Positions 48-9,238 of a DNA stretch of 64,000 bases are shown here, piece after piece. The stretch is taken from contig JAPPFC010000046.1 of assembly GCA_028824015.1 (NCBI GenBank), forward strand, positions 1 through 64,000. Direction: 5' to 3'. The notes beneath the pieces are model-generated. The model was not told the origin of the DNA. It worked only from the letters and a program-made list of their open reading frames with translations, and made no database searches. Numbering within the stretch: position 1 is the first letter of the stretch; every line of letters begins with the position of its first letter. The stretch comes from a bacterium. GTDB taxonomy: Bacteria > Actinomycetota > Acidimicrobiia > Spongiisociales > ZC4RG35. A program made the position numbers and the translations under genes.

Positions 48-607
48 CCATCACACTGGGAGGCAATTGGCGTTGGGTCGGCACACCGGCTTCAACTATG
101 TCAGAACGCCGCACAGCAAATCTGCGACCGCCCGCTAGTTACGCGCCAGCTCAGGTAACGCGGCCACATGAGGTCTATAGGATGGGATGCATCATGTCCC
201 TTGGCACGCGCCGTCTCTGGCCAGGGACAAGCAATGAAACCCCATCGAGGCTCCCTCGGCAGACTGTTCGGGGAGATGAAAGACGAGGTCGCCGCACTGT
301 TAGCCGACTGTTTGGTGGCTGAGGTACTTGAGGAATGAGACGTTGCTACGACCCCCGGTGGGGAGAGGCCTGCCAGCGGGTGGACCGAGCCGCCTCCCTG
401 CTGGAAAGGACCCGAAGGAGCGGCGATCCGAGAGTGTGGGAGGCCAGAAAAGGGTACTGGTTCAGTTCGGATTTGAGAGGGGGGGGCGGGGGGCTAGCCC
501 CCCGGCTGGGGGTTTCTGGTGGTTTATGGAGGGCGCCAACCACCGTCTCCGGGGTACTGGCTCAGTTTGGGATGGGAACGCCACAAAGGGTTAGGGCGGG
601 CCTCCGA
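48..607. other. Non-coding or decayed stretch at the left edge
   Basis: No convincing gene is present. The short open frames here overlap each other on both strands and have no recognisable protein character. It holds an 18-bp perfect palindrome at 487-504 (CGGGGGGCTAGCCCCCCG) and two imperfect repeats at 452-470 and 552-570. The mixture suggests insertion-sequence debris. Confidence 0.5.
452..570 (+). repeat. Two direct copies of a 19-bp repeat
   Basis: GGGTACTGGTTCAGTTCGG at 452-470 and GGGTACTGGCTCAGTTTGG at 552-570 match at 17 of 19 positions. An inverted copy lies at 1964-1980, on the far side of the methyltransferase-HNH gene. The arrangement resembles ends of a small mobile element. 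Confidence 0.45.
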
Positions 608-1837
608 TCATGCGGCGAGGCGGAGCTTAGCCCGTAGGTATTCCATGCCTCGGTTGCCTTTCACTCGGTTGCAGTGTCCGCATAGTAGTTGTAGGTTGTC
701 GAGGTGGTCTGTTCCGCCCTTTGTTCGGGCGATGATGTGGTCGACTTCCAAGTGGTGGATTTTGAAGTGCTCTCCGCATCCCGCGCAGTGTCCACCCTGA
801 ACCCCATACAGGTGGTGACGGTTCTCCAAGCTACCAGCGGCGGGTAGCGGTCCCAGGTCGGTCCGTTGGGGTACATCGGTGCGGTGGGTGATATCCCGAA
901 ACAAGCCCTGTCGTTCCTGAACGCGGTGTACCACTAGTTCGGCGGCCTTGGGGGAGATGTCAATGCCGATCCATTGGCGGGCATGATCATCGGCGGCCAC
1001 CATGGTTGTAGCGCATCCGCAAAACGGATCCAACACCACATCCCCCGGTTTGCTGCTGGCCTTGATGACTTGGTTGAGGAGAGCCAGAGGCTTTTGGGTG
1101 GGATATCCCGTGCGTTCCTTGGACACAGACGAGATTAGGGAGATTTCCCACCAGTCAGGAACCATTTTCCCATCAGGGTGATAACCCTTGTCTGTCTGTA
1201 TTTTTCCCGCCTTGTCGTACGCATAAATGTCGCGATAAGGGATGCCTCTGAGTGGTTGGTGGAATGACTTTTTGGCATCCTTCCCGTAGAGCAGCAACAC
1301 GTCATGTTTGCGTGGGAAGTACCGTCTTGACGCACCCCCGGCGTGGTAGGCCCAGATGATTTCGTTGCGAAAGTTTCCCCGCCCGTAGATGGCATCCATT
1401 AGGAGCTTCAGATAGTGGCTCATGGTCGGATCACAGTGAAGATAGATCGACCCGGTGGGTTTTAGAAGCCGCCGCATCTCTAAGAGTCGGATGGCCATGT
1501 ACACCAGATAGGATTTGTCCGAAGGGGTCATGGCCGCCAGTAGCACCCGCCACAGGGCGGGGTGTTTGTCCTCGATCAGGTCAATCCATTCGATGTCGAG
1601 GTCGGTGAGCGTCCAGGTGTCCTTGAATGCCGCGCCAGCCGCAGCACTGCCGATTGGCGCGGCATAGTCTGCCTTGCTGTTGAACGGCGGGTCAAGATAC
1701 AGTAGATCCACCGTCTCGGAGTTCATGCCGCGCATCACGTCAATGTTGTCCCCCGTCCAGACGGTCTTGTTGACCCAGTTCGCTCCAACTTTGGGGGCCA
1801 CGTTAGGCGAATAGGTCCTTACAGCCACAACGGCCAA
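608..1837 (-). CDS. DNA methyltransferase (N6-adenine/N4-cytosine type) fused to C-terminal HNH nuclease domain
   Basis: The N-terminal part is a DNA amino-methyltransferase. The catalytic motif DPPFN is at residues 49-53 and the SAM-binding motif DPFCGCATT at about 270-278, so motif IV precedes motif I as in the beta class (N6_N4_Mtase). From about residue 342 there is an HNH endonuclease domain with two CxxC pairs (C351/C354 and C386/C389) and the core LEVDHI at about 364-368. The 409-residue length is given from the TTG at 1837; GTG at 1828 has a better-placed AAGG upstream and may be the real start. No separate restriction subunit or specificity gene is adjacent, so the HNH domain may supply the cutting activity of a one-protein restriction-modification enzyme. 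It could also be a phage-type modification protein. Short inverted repeats flank the gene. Confidence 0.85.
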   Translation of the reverse strand: MAVVAVRTYSPNVAPKVGANWVNKTVWTGDNIDVMRGMNSETVDLLYLDPPFNSKADYAAPIGSAAAGAAFKDTWTLTDLDIEWIDLIEDKHPALWRVLLAAMTPSDKSYLVYMAIRLLEMRRLLKPTGSIYLHCDPTMSHYLKLLMDAIYGRGNFRNEIIWAYHAGGASRRYFPRKHDVLLLYGKDAKKSFHQPLRGIPYRDIYAYDKAGKIQTDKGYHPDGKMVPDWWEISLISSVSKERTGYPTQKPLALLNQVIKASSKPGDVVLDPFCGCATTMVAADDHARQWIGIDISPKAAELVVHRVQERQGLFRDITHRTDVPQRTDLGPLPAAGSLENRHHLYGVQGGHCAGCGEHFKIHHLEVDHIIARTKGGTDHLDNLQLLCGHCNRVKGNRGMEYLRAKLRLAA

Positions 1838-2691
1838 ACCTTATGTTTGCATGCATTTATCATGCTATTCGTGGGTATTACATGAAGAGAATAGGGAACT
1901 ACAAGTATGGGATTCAACTTTGCGGGGCTTTCCGGTTTCTCTCATGACGGGAAGACCACGGTTCAAACTGAACCACTACCAAGAAATCGGATCTTCCCAG
2001 TCTTTAGCTGATGGACCTGCTCTCGGCGGGTCCGCCTGAGAGACGCCAGGGTTGGGGAGTCCACACCCGGCGGGATGGCTGCGGAGACGGCCAGGGGTTT
2101 GTCAATGGCCGTCGTGTCTTGGAGCGGCTGGTGGCGGTCCGGGATTCGTCAAGGGTGAGGGCGGGTTGGTGGTAGCGGCCCCGGGCGGCGTATTCCTGCT
2201 GCTGGTTCCCCCGCCCGGAGGGACCATTGCCTTTCTCGCCCCGGGCAAGTTTTAGCCCGCCCGAAACTGGGGGAGCGAGGGACCGACCTGGAGAATCTGC
2301 CTGTGCCCGCCCTAATCTCCACTCGATCGGACTTCGACGACATGGTCTCGATGGTCGACCGGACCCTGGATCGGGCAGGTCTTCACCTGCCTGGCGTCCG
2401 AACAATCTCACCTGGAAAGCAGAGCAATATCGCGTTGCGGCATGTTTCAACCGACCGCTTGGATTTGGAATCTCGGTACCCGGCTTCGAGTCGGAGCAGT
2501 CGTGGATCCAAGCCTGCACCGCGAGAACCGTCCTCCAGAGCTTGGCGCCGGGAGGGAAACACCATATTAGGCCGCTACTCGATTCAGACCTGGCCGGCCG
2601 AAGGGTTGGAACGCCATATGTCAGCACACTTTCAGGGTTGGACAGGTAGATTCCTTGTCTCCAACCACGGACACCGTCGAGACCGACACGA
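1838..2691. other. Long stretch without a recognisable gene
   Basis: About 850 bases hold only overlapping short frames with no family resemblance. An inverted copy of the left-hand repeat lies at 1964-1980. Around 2179-2320 the sequence resembles that at 7405-7485: both carry CCCCGGGCGGC(G/A)TATT followed by GGGAC(C/T)GACC and GTGCCCGC. The stretch is probably the debris of lost island genes. Confidence 0.45.
1964..1980 (-). repeat. Inverted copy of the 17-19 bp repeat
   Basis: The reverse complement reads GGTAGTGGTTCAGTTTG. It matches 15 of 17 bases of each left-hand copy (452-470 and 552-570). Together they bracket the methyltransferase-HNH gene. Confidence 0.4.
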
Positions 2692-3828
2692 TTGTCGTGT
2701 CCCAGATGCCATCCGAAGCGAAAGGGAACCAGGTTGAATAAACGAGCGGAGCAACCCAGTAGAGGAACACCAGCGGAAAGGACGCACGGTTTTGGCTTGT
2801 CCGAGTTGCCTGACCGGGAGTTCGTCGAGAGACTCCGACAGTTTGAGGATGACCGTTGGCCTGTGGGCCATTTATTCGAGTTAAATAGACGAGGGTTGCA
2901 CATCCTGGACGACGACTCGAAACTGCGGATGGCCGCCAACGAGCAGATCCGAGTCGCCAAGGAAGCCATGCAGAGGATGTCCAAGGAGGCATCTGGGTCG
3001 GTTGTCTCGTTGACGTCTCGGGATTTTCTGGTCCGGGGTTTCAAAGGGCTGGGATCACACTTGGATGCGCTGCAAAAGGAAGCCTTCCAGGGTCTTGAAG
3101 CGATCAGGTCACACGTTGGAGTGTTCCGGGAACAGGTCAGAGCATCTCTCTTCGACTTGGGAAAGCACATGTCGGACGCCTTGGAGTCATACTCGGAGGT
3201 CGTTGAAGGCGAGGCCATTCTTGCCATGGCTCGGCATGGGTGGTTCCCTGATCTTGAGGTTCCCTTTGGACAGATCAAACTGTGGGCCGATGACCTCGAC
3301 TCCGACCCGGAGCGGGCACACAAAGCCAACCAGGAGCTATGCGACAGGTTCCGAGACCTGCTCGACAGCATCGAGAACAAACTCAGAAGCGAGTTCCCCG
3401 ACCGGTCGGAGATACTGGGAGACGCCTTCCAAGCCCACAGGCAAGGCAAGTACAACCTGAGCGTGCCCGTATTCCTCACACAAATCGACGGTTTGTTCTA
3501 TGACCGCTACCTCAAGAACCTCTTCTACGGGCCAGACCGGGACGACGTCGCTAAAGCCCTAGGGCGGATCCCGTACGAACTCGACCGCTCGCTATGCCGC
3601 GCCCTGCTGTACGACGGCTTGCCTCTTCTAGCGAATCGGAGTCAGAGACAGCAGCAGCCGGACGGTCACTCTGAACTCAACAGACACCAGGTGCTCCACG
3701 GAGAGGCCACCGACTACGGCACAGAACAAAACAGCCTCAAAACAATATCCCTTCTGAACTACTGCGCGTTCGTTCTGCCAGAGGTCCGTCTAACAGAGAT
3801 GGAGCAACAGACCAATATAGGCGGTTAG
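2692..3828 (+). CDS. HEPN-like hypothetical protein
   Basis: The product is 378 residues, mostly helical and charged, of unknown biochemical role. Near the C-terminus the segment NRHQVLHG (about 330-337) followed by YGTEQNSLKTISLL fits the Rx4-6H signature of HEPN RNase-like domains, which occur in abortive-infection and toxin-antitoxin proteins. A central helical region at about 75-250 has no recognisable family. The start used is a TTG at 2692; the first 40 or so residues are basic and low-quality, so a later start is possible. It stands alone, with no antitoxin-like partner next to it. The island context supports a defence role, but that is inference. Confidence 0.65.
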   Translation: MSCPRCHPKRKGTRLNKRAEQPSRGTPAERTHGFGLSELPDREFVERLRQFEDDRWPVGHLFELNRRGLHILDDDSKLRMAANEQIRVAKEAMQRMSKEASGSVVSLTSRDFLVRGFKGLGSHLDALQKEAFQGLEAIRSHVGVFREQVRASLFDLGKHMSDALESYSEVVEGEAILAMARHGWFPDLEVPFGQIKLWADDLDSDPERAHKANQELCDRFRDLLDSIENKLRSEFPDRSEILGDAFQAHRQGKYNLSVPVFLTQIDGLFYDRYLKNLFYGPDRDDVAKALGRIPYELDRSLCRALLYDGLPLLANRSQRQQQPDGHSELNRHQVLHGEATDYGTEQNSLKTISLLNYCAFVLPEVRLTEMEQQTNIGG

Positions 3829-3991
3829 TCTCCGCAAGAACCGGGGTTGGCGTTGCTCGAAACGGGTTTCCGCTCCATGGAAGCGGGCTGTGGAGCTAGC
3901 ACGCGCCTTTCTTCGAGAGGGGGGAGATTGGGCGCGGCCAGAGCGCGAGGGCAAGGTGGGGTGAGCACACCAACCGAGGCATCGTTCAGGA

Positions 3992-4732
3992 TCACACGCA
4001 AGTATCCGCGCTAGTTACGGGAACTTGCAGCCCATGCTCATGAGTAATGCTCCTGACACAATCTGATGTCCGGGCGTCCATGCGCGGAGACACCCACACC
4101 TCTTTGACCAGCGTTGACAGGTTTACTTCCTTTAGGTGGCTTCTGGCTCTAAGGGGCCGTGACAGAATGTTGACTAACGAAGCCATGTGCGCTATCTCTC
4201 CCTCTGTGATGAGATCAGTGAGCAACATGTGTTGTGATACATCGAAAACACGGACCTCTTGTTCCCAGGCATGCTCCGCGCTCTTGGTCCGTATATGTGC
4301 GAGAGAGTCGAATAGCCGAAATTGGGCATCGGCTGGTTCGTCTGAATACTCCACTGGCACCAAGGTGACCATATACGTCCCGTTCAGACTGGACTTCAAA
4401 GACTCAACATCGGTCTTAATGGCGATTCCGCTCCCCTCGTCTGTGTACTCTCGCCACGCTCGCTGCGACAAAGACGCATCGGAGCGCCAACAACTCGCCG
4501 TCGTGGATTCCCGAGCAAAACTCCTCAACAGCATGTCTACCGTCTCAGCCTGTCCATCTCCATACTCGTACCACCAGCCCTCATGCTGGTCATCAAACTC
4601 ATCCAATCGAGAGAACCACAGTGATCGAGTTCTTAGCAGAGACACGTACTTGTCGAGATTCATGTAGCGCCACAGCGTGTTTGTAGCTATCGAATTCCAC
4701 AGCTTCTCAAATCCACGAAAGTCAATGTGCAT
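3992..4732 (-). CDS. DUF2971 family protein
   Basis: The 246-residue protein has the DUF2971 pattern: an N-terminal LWRYMNLDKYVSLL segment, LWFSRLDEFDDQHEG at about 38-52, then a conserved SCWR...SQRAWREYT...GSGIAI stretch at about 80-105. Its biochemical function is unknown. Members are frequent in phage-defence and mobile islands, which matches this setting. The start is an ATG at 4732 with a short gap to the next gene on the same strand (4950-6272), so the two may be co-transcribed. Confidence 0.75.
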   Translation of the reverse strand: MHIDFRGFEKLWNSIATNTLWRYMNLDKYVSLLRTRSLWFSRLDEFDDQHEGWWYEYGDGQAETVDMLLRSFARESTTASCWRSDASLSQRAWREYTDEGSGIAIKTDVESLKSSLNGTYMVTLVPVEYSDEPADAQFRLFDSLAHIRTKSAEHAWEQEVRVFDVSQHMLLTDLITEGEIAHMASLVNILSRPLRARSHLKEVNLSTLVKEVWVSPRMDARTSDCVRSITHEHGLQVPVTSADTCV

Positions 4733-4949
4733 CCAGTGTTACACGCTTACCCTTGCCTCCTGGGGCGGGCCTTTGGCAAGGTAATTGTACGCGACGGCGG
4801 CTGTCAGACTGTGAGGGGCAGCCGCAACCACAATGGCATGTGGTCGTTCAGGGAGTGCTCGGCTTCCTTCCCCGTCCCCACACCTGGAGATTCGACGTGA
4901 CTGGGGTCATTGGCGGTGGGTGACCATCTTTCCGCGGCCAGGTCTGTTC

Positions 4950-6272
4950 TCAATTGCCGAGGTCGTGTTCAATGTCGTCGAAGGAGACAGGATCGTCGCT
5001 GAGAGTGATTTCATAGACACCTCTCGTGACTCCATTGACACTTGTCGACGTTGCTGTCCAGAGCAGACGGACTTTTTTGGAAGGCTTCGGAATATCCACG
5101 AGTATGCATATTTGCTCGGAAGCAATCGTCTCCTCCGGCCGTAAGTGACCTACCTCCCAGACCAGTTCTGCATTGCCGTTGCCATGGGTCACGCGGATCG
5201 TGGCTGGATAGTCCGAATGGTGATACTCCCTGAAGAGGAGAGGATCCCAATCGTTGCCTAGGAAATCGGAGAGTCCAAAGTCTCGGCCGAATGGCGTTGG
5301 TTTCTCCGGTAGGCGAACCGGGGTTGAAGGGACGTGGTCGACGATCTGGATGTCTCTGGCCTGGAGGCGTACCTGGACACTGCTGAAGTTCTCATCAGTC
5401 AAGTTGGTCAACTCCAATACATAGACTCCATGACCAGCTTCCGCATATTTCTGGAACCAATGCTGCGGAGCGCATTCTTTCCATTCAGCGCACCACCTGT
5501 CGACCTGGCTCTCAAAGGTGTCTAAAGAACGCCTTTCCCTTCCGACAAACTGCGCAGCGGCTAGACCGTAAAGGTCGAATGCGCTGGGTTGCCTGTCATA
5601 ATTGCGGGCTCTAGCCAGTTGCGAGCTTCGTTCGTGATCTGAGATGCCCGCGACGGCATCTTCAAGCGCAACTCGGTCAAACCAGCTAATCCGGTCTGCT
5701 CCTACCAACAGGAATCGGATGTCCAGCCGAGTCCCCCGTGCACGCTGCTCGAGGATTTCGATGTCATCAGGCTCAGCAGGATGGGTCTTGCCATTCTTCC
5801 TAACAAAGATCATTCCTCGATGAATGTTGTCAAAACCCCTACGGAGAGTGTGGATTCTGTCTCCCGATCGTGGTGGGTCGACTTCTACAACGAGTCCCAC
5901 GACATTGCCGTCTCGCAGGTCCCGAGGGCGCCAGGCCGGGCCAGTTGCCCCGATGTAGGGGTTGATCCAATCGTGCAACTGCGCTGGGTCGAATTGCGGC
6001 GCTCCCGGAAAGGACCCTTTCTCTACACCGATAAAGATGTAGCCGTAGCCTTCGCAGTTGCGTTGAGCTACTTCCGGAGGGCGGTTTGCCATCCCGAGGA
6101 TGTGTTTTGACAGTCGGAACCGCGCTCGCTGGTCATTGAGATCGAGTTCCCTCTTCCATTCCAGCCAGTCCTCCTCAATGCTCATCCTGCCTGCCCTGAT
6201 CTCGCGGGCAAGCACCCGAAGACGTTCGTCACTCAAAGGTCCGCGTTCCATCTGGGCCTTCCAGGCAGGCAT
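4950..6272 (-). CDS. AlbA_2 (Schlafen-like, divergent AAA_4) domain protein
   Basis: In this 440-residue protein the N-terminal 180 residues carry the AlbA_2 pattern: an EWKRELDLND start, a HILGMANRP helix, a GYIFIGVEKG strand and a late MIFVRKNGKTHPA segment. AlbA_2 domains bind nucleic acid and occur in bacterial regulators and defence proteins. The C-terminal 250 residues are predicted mixed alpha/beta and unassigned. The start is ATG at 6272; a second ATG at 6251 is possible. It lies upstream of the DUF2971 gene on the same strand. Confidence 0.7.
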   Translation of the reverse strand: MPAWKAQMERGPLSDERLRVLAREIRAGRMSIEEDWLEWKRELDLNDQRARFRLSKHILGMANRPPEVAQRNCEGYGYIFIGVEKGSFPGAPQFDPAQLHDWINPYIGATGPAWRPRDLRDGNVVGLVVEVDPPRSGDRIHTLRRGFDNIHRGMIFVRKNGKTHPAEPDDIEILEQRARGTRLDIRFLLVGADRISWFDRVALEDAVAGISDHERSSQLARARNYDRQPSAFDLYGLAAAQFVGRERRSLDTFESQVDRWCAEWKECAPQHWFQKYAEAGHGVYVLELTNLTDENFSSVQVRLQARDIQIVDHVPSTPVRLPEKPTPFGRDFGLSDFLGNDWDPLLFREYHHSDYPATIRVTHGNGNAELVWEVGHLRPEETIASEQICILVDIPKPSKKVRLLWTATSTSVNGVTRGVYEITLSDDPVSFDDIEHDLGN

Positions 6273-6511
6273 CCATTCTCACTCCCCGCCCAGTCACAAT
6301 ACAGGCCACCGACAAGCCCTCCTAGCCCTTCGATAACACCGGGGTGGATCCAAGGGTCCGATTCGCTTCTCGTGGGGTAGTTTCCTGATTTGGACTGACA
6401 CGGCAAGGGGTTGCTTAAGGTGTGGCCAATCCCTGTTGGTAGGCAGGTGATGCCCTTGTGCGCTTTGGCAATCTAGTCGTTAGCCCTTCCGCACCGAAAG
6501 CTACGCGGGGG

Positions 6512-7294
6512 CTATTCGGCCAGGTCGATCCAGTTGAGAATATCCCTAAGCAGAGACCGGTACCACCGCCACTGTGGCGTCACGGACTCCACATGTGCCC
6601 ATAGTCTCTCCACAAACGAGGGATCGGCGATTGAGTCTCCGCCCGTGGGTTGCATCATTTGGTTCAGTGTGTCTCTGGTCAGGTCGTCGCGATGCCGGCC
6701 GCCGGCGAGGATCAGCACAGTGACCATATGCAGTCCGGTATGGTCGTCCGAGGTGACAGCGAGCGCGTCGCGGAGGGCAGCGGCGGCGTCGTAGATGCTG
6801 TCGTGGTTCATGGCCAGTTCGTGGTAGGCGGCGGGTGCACCGGTGCGTAGGGCCAGCACGGAGAGGAAGGCTTGCAGAACCAGAGGAGCGGGGTTGACGT
6901 TGCCGAGAGCGTCGAGGGAGACAGCAGCCCTATGAATCAACTGTTGGGTGTCGCGTAGGCTCATGCCCAGCCGGTCGATCATCGCTTTTGTCATCGTTGT
7001 GGTGTTCTTTTCGTAGGGGCCGCTCCGCCACATGTCGGTGTCTGCAGCCGTGGAAAGACTGTCCAGGAACTGGTCGATTCCGCCGTCTTCCGCGGGCGGT
7101 CGTCGCAAATCTATGGAGTAGTCAACGAAACGCTTGAGGAATGTTTCCGCGTCGGTCTCGGGGCCGTAAAGCTGCTGGACCGGGAAGAATGCGATTTCTA
7201 TTTGCCGCACCCTGCGGTGCACGCGTGGGCGTTGCAGGTCGAGTTCGAAACCGACGACGGCGGAACCGTCGAAACGGTGTGGCACACCCTTCAC
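6512..7294 (-). pseudogene. C-terminal fragment of a KAP-family P-loop NTPase
   Basis: The segment VQQLYGPETDAETFLKRF followed by DYSIDL matches the region just after the NTPase core in KAP-type P-loop proteins, where LYG..FDAE.YL.RF..L..L is conserved. No Walker A or Walker B motif precedes it, so the catalytic half is missing. The first 36 or so residues of the open frame run antisense to a plausible plus-strand gene tail (7187-7360), so the true KAP remnant probably begins near 7190. I read this as a gene cut by recombination. Confidence 0.55.
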
Positions 7295-7360
7295 TCAGGT
7301 GCTCTGCGGTTGGTGCGACTGATCGACTACGCCGGCGCCCAAACGACCAACACCAACTAG
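7187..7360 (+). pseudogene. Possible 3' end of a lost gene
   Basis: An open frame ending in TAG at 7358-7360 reads ECDFYLPHPAVHAW, then LQVEFETDDGG, then RLVRLIDYAGA. The composition is protein-like, and a strong hairpin follows 20 bp later. No start codon or upstream part is present, because the upstream DNA belongs to the KAP fragment on the other strand. The family is unknown. Confidence 0.3.
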
Positions 7361-7379
7361 CCCAAGCGGCTAGTTCCTC

Positions 7380-7435
7380 GCCGCCCGGGGGGTACTTGAG
7401 CCTTCCCCCCGGGCGGCATATTGCTGTTGATTTTT
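7380..7435 (+). terminator. Strong GC hairpin, possible terminator
   Basis: A perfect 13-bp inverted repeat (7380-7392 with 7405-7417) encloses a 12-base loop. A run of five Ts at 7431-7435 follows, but 13 bases after the stem, so it is not a canonical intrinsic terminator. The position fits transcription ending after the plus-strand fragment at 7360. Confidence 0.4.
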
Positions 7436-7522
7436 CCAAGGAGAGGACCGGAGGGGACTGACCCGGGCACCGTGCCCGCTCATACCGGCGGCCTTAACAC
7501 CGGGTTGTAAGCCGTCGACAAG

Positions 7523-9238
7523 TTAGGTATTGTCTCCGGTTCTCATGTGCGTCACTCCCGAGGTGGCGCCGATCAGGTCGGCGACGGTTTGCAGGGTTCT
7601 GCCGATGGGTATCTCCATGTGGTCCTGCGAGTTGAGCTTTCGGAGGAGGATCGGCCAGGTTTCTTTCGCCAGTTCGACCTTGGATAGGTGCCATCCCCAG
7701 TTCTTCCACACGGTCCTGATGTTCTGCTTTTCTCTGCGGTGGGTTGCCAGGGCTTGTTCGATCTTGTCGGCCGGTGGGGCGGTCTGCTTTTGTTTCCGGG
7801 CTGTTCGGTGGATGGCCTGAGCGAGTTCTTCGTCGGTGAAGTGGGCGAACTCGAAGCAACCTCCTGCGCCCCACGTCTCCACTACGACCAAGTGTTCAAG
7901 GTTTTCCAGGATCGCGGATGTTTGGAAATCTTCTGGTAGGGCCTCCCAGATTTCTTTGATGATCCTGATCCGCTGGTTCTGTTGCTGTTCGTCAGTTTCG
8001 TAGCGTCCTTCTTGGTCCACGGCTACTACTAGCCCGGTCAGCGGGCGGAGAAGACGTGCTCGGTCCCGAGCCTGCCGTTCGAGTTTCGGCGTGGCCACAG
8101 CGCGGGCGATCGGGGTCACGTCCTTGTCGATGCCTTTCAGATTGACAATGTCCACCAGTCCGGTGTCCGCTCCCATGCCTGCCCATTCGAGAGCACGAGG
8201 CATCATGTATTCCTCGGTTTGTCCTTCCACCACCACTACAACAGCGGGTGCGTCCTCAAGGCGGAAACGCTGCAGGGCTCGGGAGCGTTCCAGATAGTTC
8301 ATCGTCAGACGGTCTCGTCTTGGCGGACCCCACATCTCGGTAGGTTCTGACAGCGGTTCGGCAAGACCCTGGTCGGCGAGGTCTTCGTAGAAGAACAGAA
8401 GCATCTCGGCCGCTATTCGCCAGTCCATGGCTTGCAACGCGTCGAACCTCAGGTCGGGCCACCGATCCGGCGTACCGGCCCGGACTATTTGGTGCCATTC
8501 TCCCAGCGGGTCGAAAGACCTCGCGCCCAACAGCAAGTCTTCCGCCTCACCGAGCAGCATGTCAGGTTCGATCCCTGACAGCAAACGCTGCTCGCTGCTT
8601 GTGCTGGTCGGCGCGGACCGGGCATGGTTTTGCATCTCGGCACGGTCGAGGGGGAATGGGATCTTCACCCTGCCCACTACCCGGGGTCTGTACCGGGGAG
8701 ATAGAACCTCCAGAACAATGGCGAGGGACCGGGTGTCCCGAGCCGTTTCCACTGCCCTGCGATTGGGGTAAGCCAACTCCAATGCGAGGCGGTCGTCTAC
8801 CCACCCACCTTTGAACTCTTTGACCCATGGGCCAAGTTGTTGCAGTGCCATGAGTTGGTACCACGAGTAGAACACCCCTGCCGACGAACCCGGCCTGGGC
8901 CAGGGACGGAAAGGAGTCGTGCTCGGATCACGCAAGCGACCCTCCGCCCAAGCCACGTGAACATCATCACCCCACCCAGGACGGGGGCGCTCGGAACTAG
9001 GATGCTCGGGTGGTTCTACCGGCCGCGAGTACACCCGGAAGAGAGGCACCAGCAGGCGTCTGCGGTGAAGAAACTCCAACTGGTCCCACAAGACATGAAC
9101 ACCGCGGTTTCGCGCCTCCCGAATGAAGGAATGGGGGTTTAGAAGCCGTTCTTGCGAAAAGACAAAGGGGACCGATAGCAGTTCCAGGGCGGACGGAGCA
9201 CTATCGGAAGCGATTCTGGAGATCAGAGACGACCTTGC
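7523..9238 (-). pseudogene. TOPRIM-domain protein, 5' end missing
   Basis: A TOPRIM-type motif set is visible: AVVVVVEGQTEEY with its glutamate, followed about 80 residues later by GLVVAVDQEG. This pattern occurs in OLD-like nucleases and related defence proteins, but no ABC-type ATPase half is present. The usual start would be TTG at 9091, giving 522 residues. The frame, however, stays open and protein-like for 49 more codons upstream (SLISRIASDS, ALELLSVPFVFSQERLLNPH) to a TAG at 9239-9241. That extension has no ATG, GTG or TTG. The gene has therefore probably lost its beginning at the island border. Confidence 0.6.

Follow-up and report, generated by a model that had tools for sequence, protein, structure and literature searches.

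Near the start of the window, the 64,000-nucleotide stretch of DNA analysed here (positions 1-64000 of contig C45), a minus-strand open reading frame at 608-1837 encodes a DNA methyltransferase (MTase) fused to an HNH domain in a single open frame of 409 aa. The start codon is TTG at 1837 or, alternatively, the GTG that lies three codons further in. Pfam searches placed N6_N4_Mtase (PF01555, E=2e-43) at residues 43-302 and HNH (PF01844, E=2.8e-13, scoring 50.2 bits where the cut-off is 21.4) at residues 351-396. Motif IV (LDPPF, residues 48-52), whose DPPF (residues 49-52; 1682-1693, minus strand) is invariant across a nine-member alignment, precedes a variable region and then motif I (DPFCGCATT, residues 270-278; DPFCGCAT, residues 270-277, at 1007-1030, minus strand, from translation and alignment). 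Because motif IV, recognition region and motif I follow in that order, the MTase belongs to the beta class. Sequence comparison marks the most variable part, residues 161-238 (1124-1357, minus strand), as the presumed target-recognition region. Beyond the linker RTDVPQRTDLG (residues 319-329; 851-883, minus strand), at which the HNH-less relatives L105-L107 stop, the HNH domain (650-787, minus strand) contains C351, C354, D366, H367, N381, C386, C389 and N390.

An earlier note on this DNA had described a complete beta-class amino-MTase followed, in the same protein, by an HNH domain with an intact zinc site, and this description holds: PF01555 is matched with motif IV before motif I, C351, C354, C386 and C389 are in place, and the search of the C-terminus that the note had named as a check returned PF01844. 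The metal His and Asn, whose loss it had named as evidence against an HNH nuclease, are also there (D366, H367, N381 and N390 are all present). The closest solved structures by sequence are 9c3u, 8urk, RsrI, CcrM and MboIIA (PDB 1g60, M.MboIIA, E=1e-13) for the MTase part, and, for the C-terminus, the HNH segments of a group II maturase and of proteins of the Cas9 and IscB types. In AlphaFold models (26 rows) many MTase blocks reached pLDDT 80-94 and the recognition region and HNH domain were modelled poorly; HNH pLDDT was 38-58, so it is the profile match that supports the HNH fold.

The gene sits 0.6 kb from the end of the contig, and statements on its neighbours therefore cover one side. 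On that side, the further claim that no other restriction-modification (R-M) subunit is adjacent was borne out for five neighbouring ORFs (2692-9091), none of which matched a restriction endonuclease or MTase family. The first of them (2692-3828) has no useful profile match and an HEPN-like Rx4H ending by eye; the others matched DUF2971/PDC-S31, SLFN_AlbA_2 (below cut-off), PDC-S20 (partial) and, weakly, an OLD-like TOPRIM. The genes of this stretch are candidate defence genes. GC content is 0.581 in the first 9.5 kb against 0.643, and 0.568 in the fusion gene against 0.643 in the rest of the window. The interval from the cassette to the defence-like genes contains an 88-bp fragment (2292-2379). 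DNA about 85-90% identical to it occurs in each of the six genomes of the genus, the window's own genome having a second copy on C36; in L209 the matching DNA is the 3' end of a gene for an aminotransferase-like protein. When positions 1981-2700 were used to look for an empty site in the genus, the only match elsewhere was this aminotransferase fragment. At the contig end itself, positions 6-47 hold two direct repeats of TGGGGAATTTCGRTGATCG. The end of contig G005:C106 has a 90% identical counterpart of positions 6-53, and a repeat element may therefore be where contigs break.

Family members and their nuclease domains

On C35, the genome that contains the window encodes a second MTase-HNH fusion, of 481 aa, and on C8 a 611-aa MTase whose C-terminus differs, being Mrr-like. 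A 16S search of this genome returned nothing. Homologue searches took in 34 genomes of the family, 138 of the order and 395 of the class. Open HNH fusions were found in G006, G339 (four, one of them with D-Q in place of the D-H pair), G194, G316, G068 and G311, and broken or partial ones in G005, G002 and G056; in G054 the HNH that accompanies the MTase is of another subtype and scores just below the Pfam cut-off. Among 396 genomes of the phylum searched at E<=1e-60 there were more family members, but only in G000 and G194 did a match span the whole of MTase and HNH. Frameshifts break the fusions of L077, L078 and L089, L084 is broken or truncated N-terminally, and the fusions of L082 and L085 are also split over two frames. 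The break in L077 (genome G005) falls in a G10 tract at about 2880-2890, at the start of the recognition region. Phase variation was considered and set aside: the window has G5 at this position, and homopolymer errors in MAGs are likely.

We used HMMs built in this analysis to call nuclease domains in relatives on viral contigs. Among the best 80 of 254 such relatives, 71 had an Mrr-like C-terminus, 3 had HNH, 6 had neither and none had both; in L163, one of the six with neither, HNH occupies a separate downstream ORF. A scan of the viral contigs for HNH alone returned one locus, on a contig already found. Pfam supports Mrr_cat in L056/L213, L082 and L091 (2.7e-5 to 2.4e-7), the assignment of L005 as Mrr-like falls below its cut-off, and L010/L011 have no Pfam support; the C-termini of this last pair align with other Mrr-like ones over a GDDGIDG...VQV motif. 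As judged by these matches, a predicted Mrr-like domain of the PD-(D/E)XK type stands in the place of HNH in other clades.

A tree of 215 MTase core columns was built by a quick method from 88 of 160 rows, with viral Mrr and Chloroflexi rows thinned. Thirteen HNH fusions group with L105-L107 (support 81), and L090 and L110, both with HNH of other subtypes, form a more distant pair apart from this main group. L105-L107 (support 99) are nested within the HNH group (supports 85-86). One change between HNH and Mrr suffices on this tree, so the alternation of nucleases is read as one switch and one apparent loss rather than many, and repeated swapping of HNH and Mrr is unsupported.

The MTases of L105-L107 terminate at the RTDxPQRTx linker. 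A programmed split of MTase and HNH was considered for these loci and rejected, as no downstream HNH occurs in any frame of the stretches read. Directly downstream of the MTase and convergent to it, L106 (4492-5583) and L107 (4667-5743) carry a gene for about 360 aa that weakly resembles HSDR_N, at 4.8e-4 in L106 and 0.052 in L107 (both below the Pfam cut-off). L105 retains a short remnant of this gene; it was not found in the compared loci outside L105-L107. In L106 its C-terminus resembles the SeqA C-terminal domain (1.2e-4, below cut-off), a fold that reads hemimethylated GATC in E. coli. These three loci have apparently lost HNH, and a separate putative nuclease gene, or its remnant, adjoins the MTase. 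The convergent gene of L106 and L107 is a possible candidate for a methylation-sensing restriction nuclease.

Where the HNH domain is present, its key residues are conserved. C351, D366, N381, C386, C389, N390, K393 and G394 are invariant in the alignment of nine fusions, and the catalytic-type D-H pair, checked by script and by eye, is kept in 20 of 21 HNH copies, the exception being D-Q in L102. We take residues of the D366/H367/N381 type to correspond to D839/H840/N863 of Cas9. Compared with L084, from the same genus, the window HNH domain is identical at 66 of 69 residues and differs by 26 synonymous and 3 non-synonymous changes (pS 0.51, pN 0.019, dN/dS 0.023). Other comparisons gave HNH dN/dS values of 0.09 (L077), 0.18 (L078), 0.04 (L100) and 0.15 (L104); the comparison with L080 was saturated at synonymous sites and so yields no value. 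The window HNH domain is under purifying selection, and because dN/dS is low in every comparison that gave a value, the domain is itself selected and is no hitch-hiker.

The recognition region behaves differently from the rest of the protein. Mean pairwise identity over the nine fusions is 0.66 in the N-terminal part, 0.70 in the motif-I part and 0.56 in HNH, against 0.27 in the recognition region, whose length (residues 163-236 in the window protein) ranges from 74 to 159 aa. Even the nearest fusions, L100 and L104, are 77% and 75% identical to the window protein in the core and 35% and 25% in the recognition region. The reverse holds for two poribacterial MTase-Mrr fusions, which match the window protein at 73-76% in the recognition region (59 of 78 residues, 76%, for L010) and at 46-61% in the core parts. 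Across 160 homologues, recognition-minus-core identity to the window protein averages -0.16 (sd 0.10); the poribacterial pair, at +0.25 and +0.22, are the only ones in which the recognition region exceeds the core by a wide margin. This disparity between region and core shows that the recognition region has recombined between enzymes with different nucleases. We found one variable region in the protein, and a recombining recognition region is what would be expected if a single region serves both activities.

Transposon carriage of the family

MTase-nuclease fusions of this family are cargo of IS1595-family and IS1-like transposons, an observation that is new here. An IS1595-family transposase on the same strand adjoins the upstream end of many fusions (Pfam DDE_Tnp_IS1595: L104 6.5e-36, L081 1.1e-34, L077 4.1e-35, L091 3.5e-37, L112 1.1e-39, L073 4.9e-37), and an IS1-like transposase (DDE_Tnp_IS1, 1.2e-5 to 7.9e-8) adjoins those of L213, L144 and L198. 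By exact check, nine elements combine perfect 8-bp target duplications, inverted ends and transposase sequence. Seven are of IS1595 type, 2.2-2.9 kb long, with HNH fusions in L077, L081, L089 (where the transposase frame is open for 153 aa only) and L104, and Mrr fusions in L085, L092 and L224 (ends checked with a 10-base pattern only). The other two, L144 and L213, are of IS1 type, 4.2-4.4 kb long, with Mrr fusions. In L082 the 8-bp flanks differ at a single base; the inverted ends of L091 and L112 are not accompanied by a duplication, and the exact check found no end pair with a duplication in L225. Local alignment detected no inverted ends above shuffles in L070, L078, L100, L101, L102, L103, L108, L113, L114, L010, L155, L198 or L214, nor, at its first settings, in L144; the flank of L073 is too short for this alignment.

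A transposase lies on the same strand within 600 bp (<=600 bp) of the upstream end in 17 of 110 fusion ORFs, a set that includes gene fragments and near-identical contigs, against 0 of 74 nuclease-less MTase ORFs; these are not independent cases, because the control ORFs come largely from other clades. By nuclease type, the adjoining transposase was found for 8/18 HNH fusions (L078 and L101 through short remnants) and 9/92 Mrr fusions. Within the genus (six genomes, four of them with IS1595 transposases), seven of nine IS1595-transposase loci adjoin a fusion; the exceptions are C39 of the window's own genome, with no fusion in the 5 kb read, and an uninspected fragment, G005:C15. No MTase lies in the 7 kb read at L221 and L222, two loci of the genus with an IS1-like transposase. 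For six inspected plasmid relatives of the two transposases, the PLSDB gene table, which is incomplete, lists no MTase within 3.5 kb; elsewhere, the transposases thus carry other cargo.

Two further observations concern these elements. On plasmids, IS1-like transposases adjoin other possible addiction genes, namely a RES-domain and MbcA/ParS/Xre pair and an XRE regulator (L228, L227), which suggests that the IS1-like elements of these two loci carry various stabilising cargoes. In L101 (640-2175, 512 aa) and L225 (2532-4982, 817 aa), open frames run from IS1595 transposase sequence into MTase-nuclease; these are possible transposase-R-M chimaeras or overlapping frames.

In the window, pattern matching located an IS1-type inverted-end-like sequence, GGTAGTGGTTCAGTTTG, on the 5' side of the gene (1964-1980, minus strand), another, GGTACTGGCTCAGTTTG, on its 3' side 38 bp past the stop codon (553-569, plus strand), and a second end-like copy, GGTACTGGTTCAGTTCG, at 453-469 (plus strand). 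The sequences at 453/553 and 1980 resemble the ends of L213, L144 and L207. The 17-mer at 1980 recurs identically in two other loci. In L206 it stands about 40 bp upstream of the N-terminal part of a close MTase, which runs off the contig before its C-terminus; in L207 an HNH end is followed by an IS1-like transposase, and the 17-mer comes directly after that transposase. Of 110 genes, 6 have an inward IS1-type end no more than 100 bp from the stop, against 0.09 expected from the rate in the same loci, a count that includes the window and the near-identical L144/L145 and uses an end pattern derived from these very sequences. The window's inverted-repeat score of 25 equals the best of 30 shuffles and is no better. 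Neither the pair 453/1980 nor 553/1980 has an 8-bp target duplication, and their flanks differ. No IS1595 transposase lies beside the window gene, the copies in its own genome being on C8 and C39 only, and the IS1-like transposase of L213 has no match in that genome. Lacking transposase and target duplication, the window copy is at most, and probably, a degenerate or transposase-less cassette and not a transposon.

Tentatively, and at somewhat less than even odds, we propose that these single-chain MTase-nucleases (HNH or Mrr-like) with recombining recognition regions form a dedicated cargo class of IS1595- and IS1-like transposons. These would be minimal R-M 'addiction' transposons, and transposase-less versions such as that of the window would be moved in trans.

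Function of the fusion and comparison with known systems

We think it probable, from the sequence comparisons above, that the window gene encodes a compact single-chain R-M enzyme, beta-class MTase plus C-terminal HNH, that works in the manner of Type IIC. Its variable region, at about residues 161-238, would enable the MTase half to bind a short DNA sequence and methylate a base in it, m6A being likelier than m4C because of the DPPF motif. Delivered by the same recognition region, the HNH domain would cut DNA with unmethylated sites. One chain would thus supply protection and attack with one specificity, so that the unit could be inherited, swapped or moved together. In this lineage such units travel as cargo of IS1595-family and IS1-like transposons. 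The protein is expected to methylate, to cleave, to couple the two and presumably to oligomerise for double-strand cuts. It may restrict phages or plasmids or act in post-segregational addiction, and the window copy may be, or have been, mobile.

The earlier note had left a choice between a one-chain R-M enzyme and a self-targeting module. Selection on HNH, the Mrr-like alternatives, the apparent loss of HNH beside an adjacent putative nuclease gene and the recombining recognition region all favour the former; self-targeting found no support. A related reading, that HNH cuts methylated or hemimethylated sites as a Type IV-like or self-targeting nuclease, could draw on the weak SeqA C-terminal-like match in the separate nuclease of L106, but a chain that cut the very sites it had marked would, if it were not regulated, kill the cell, and Pfam found no modification-reading domain in the window protein; to this we give hardly any credence. 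The poor modelling of HNH and the lost catalytic His of L102 would fit an orphan MTase whose HNH fold only bound DNA or gave structure as a zinc domain. Conservation of D-H in all other copies, purifying selection and the presence of other nucleases in HNH's place in relatives make such an orphan highly doubtful.

That the family could be single-chain R-M and the window copy a decaying or unexpressed remnant that does nothing here is suggested by its missing transposase and target duplication, the several broken relatives, the TTG or GTG start and the low GC of the gene. Its frame is nonetheless full-length with all motifs present, and its HNH differs from that of L084 mostly at synonymous positions, which leaves the remnant unlikely. 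HNH might instead be a homing or mobility nuclease that spreads the MTase gene or its transposon rather than a restriction nuclease: the family is mobile, and HNH homing insertions within a phage methylase gene are described in the available text of PMC11855218. Here, however, HNH is a C-terminal domain and not an insertion, relatives have Mrr-like domains in its place or a separate nuclease gene beside the MTase, and DDE transposases already supply mobility. We rejected homing insertion as the main explanation and regard a homing or mobility role as very unlikely.

Comparison with known systems bears on the Type IIC-like reading. Phage MTases of phrog_67, which we take to be the ParB-fused kind, are of the same MTase type as the window protein (E=4.3e-56) but have a ParB partner and no HNH. 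In the MboII system, MTase and nuclease are separate proteins; its MTase, M.MboIIA, is of the same kind and works with an HNH nuclease, whereas the window protein is one chain. In the available parts of the sources, ParB-N6_N4 fusions occur in phages (PMC12704722) and R.MboII is counted among HNH enzymes (PMC4081073). As in Type IIC/IIG enzymes such as MmeI, Eco57I and BtgZI, nuclease and MTase of the predicted protein are joined in one polypeptide, and one recognition module would serve both. The window protein differs from these in its beta-class MTase, C-terminal HNH and length of 409 aa, and its sharing of the recognition region is a prediction. According to the accessible text of PMC4081073, Type IIC enzymes mostly have an N-terminal PD-(D/E)XK nuclease and a gamma-class MTase, a layout that the window protein does not match, and BtgZI is an exception with an alpha-class MTase and a C-terminal PD-(D/E)XK variant. 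Given the beta-class order and C-terminal HNH, we say that the window protein would work like Type IIC and do not file it as canonical.

Insertion sequences with passenger genes (tIS) have been described, with Siguier 2009 cited on the IS1595 family (PMC5704250 and PMC3129680, in the parts available), and their passengers are given as resistance or mobilisation cargo (PMC5704250, likewise). Relatives of the window gene lie inside such IS1595-family or IS1-like elements, with inverted ends and 8-bp duplications; the window copy differs in having no transposase. A link between IS1 and MTases is already known as a statistic: in the available text of PMC9208149, the neighbour pair 'IS1 - Site specific DNA methyltransferase' is over-represented and makes up 37.2% of IS1 couples, and that text gives the pair without mention of a nuclease. 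The accessible parts of PMC12707154, PMC4752239, PMC12839542 and PMC10305163 do not mention a single chain of beta-class MTase and HNH. In the literature covered, which left most subscription papers and REBASE outside its scope, we found no methylase-HNH fusion or IS1595 R-M passenger.

The window gene encodes a maintained MTase-HNH fusion, probably a single-chain R-M enzyme of non-canonical architecture, from a family that is partly transposon-borne. The combination of beta-class MTase and C-terminal HNH is unlisted in the available text of the Type II review PMC4081073. If the protein works as we propose, it would be a very small complete R-M system of about 1.2 kb. Carriage on simple transposons would give R-M a direct route of spreading, and addiction would in turn stabilise the transposons. 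The changes of nuclease and of recognition region that occur in nature would be ready-made material for new specificities.
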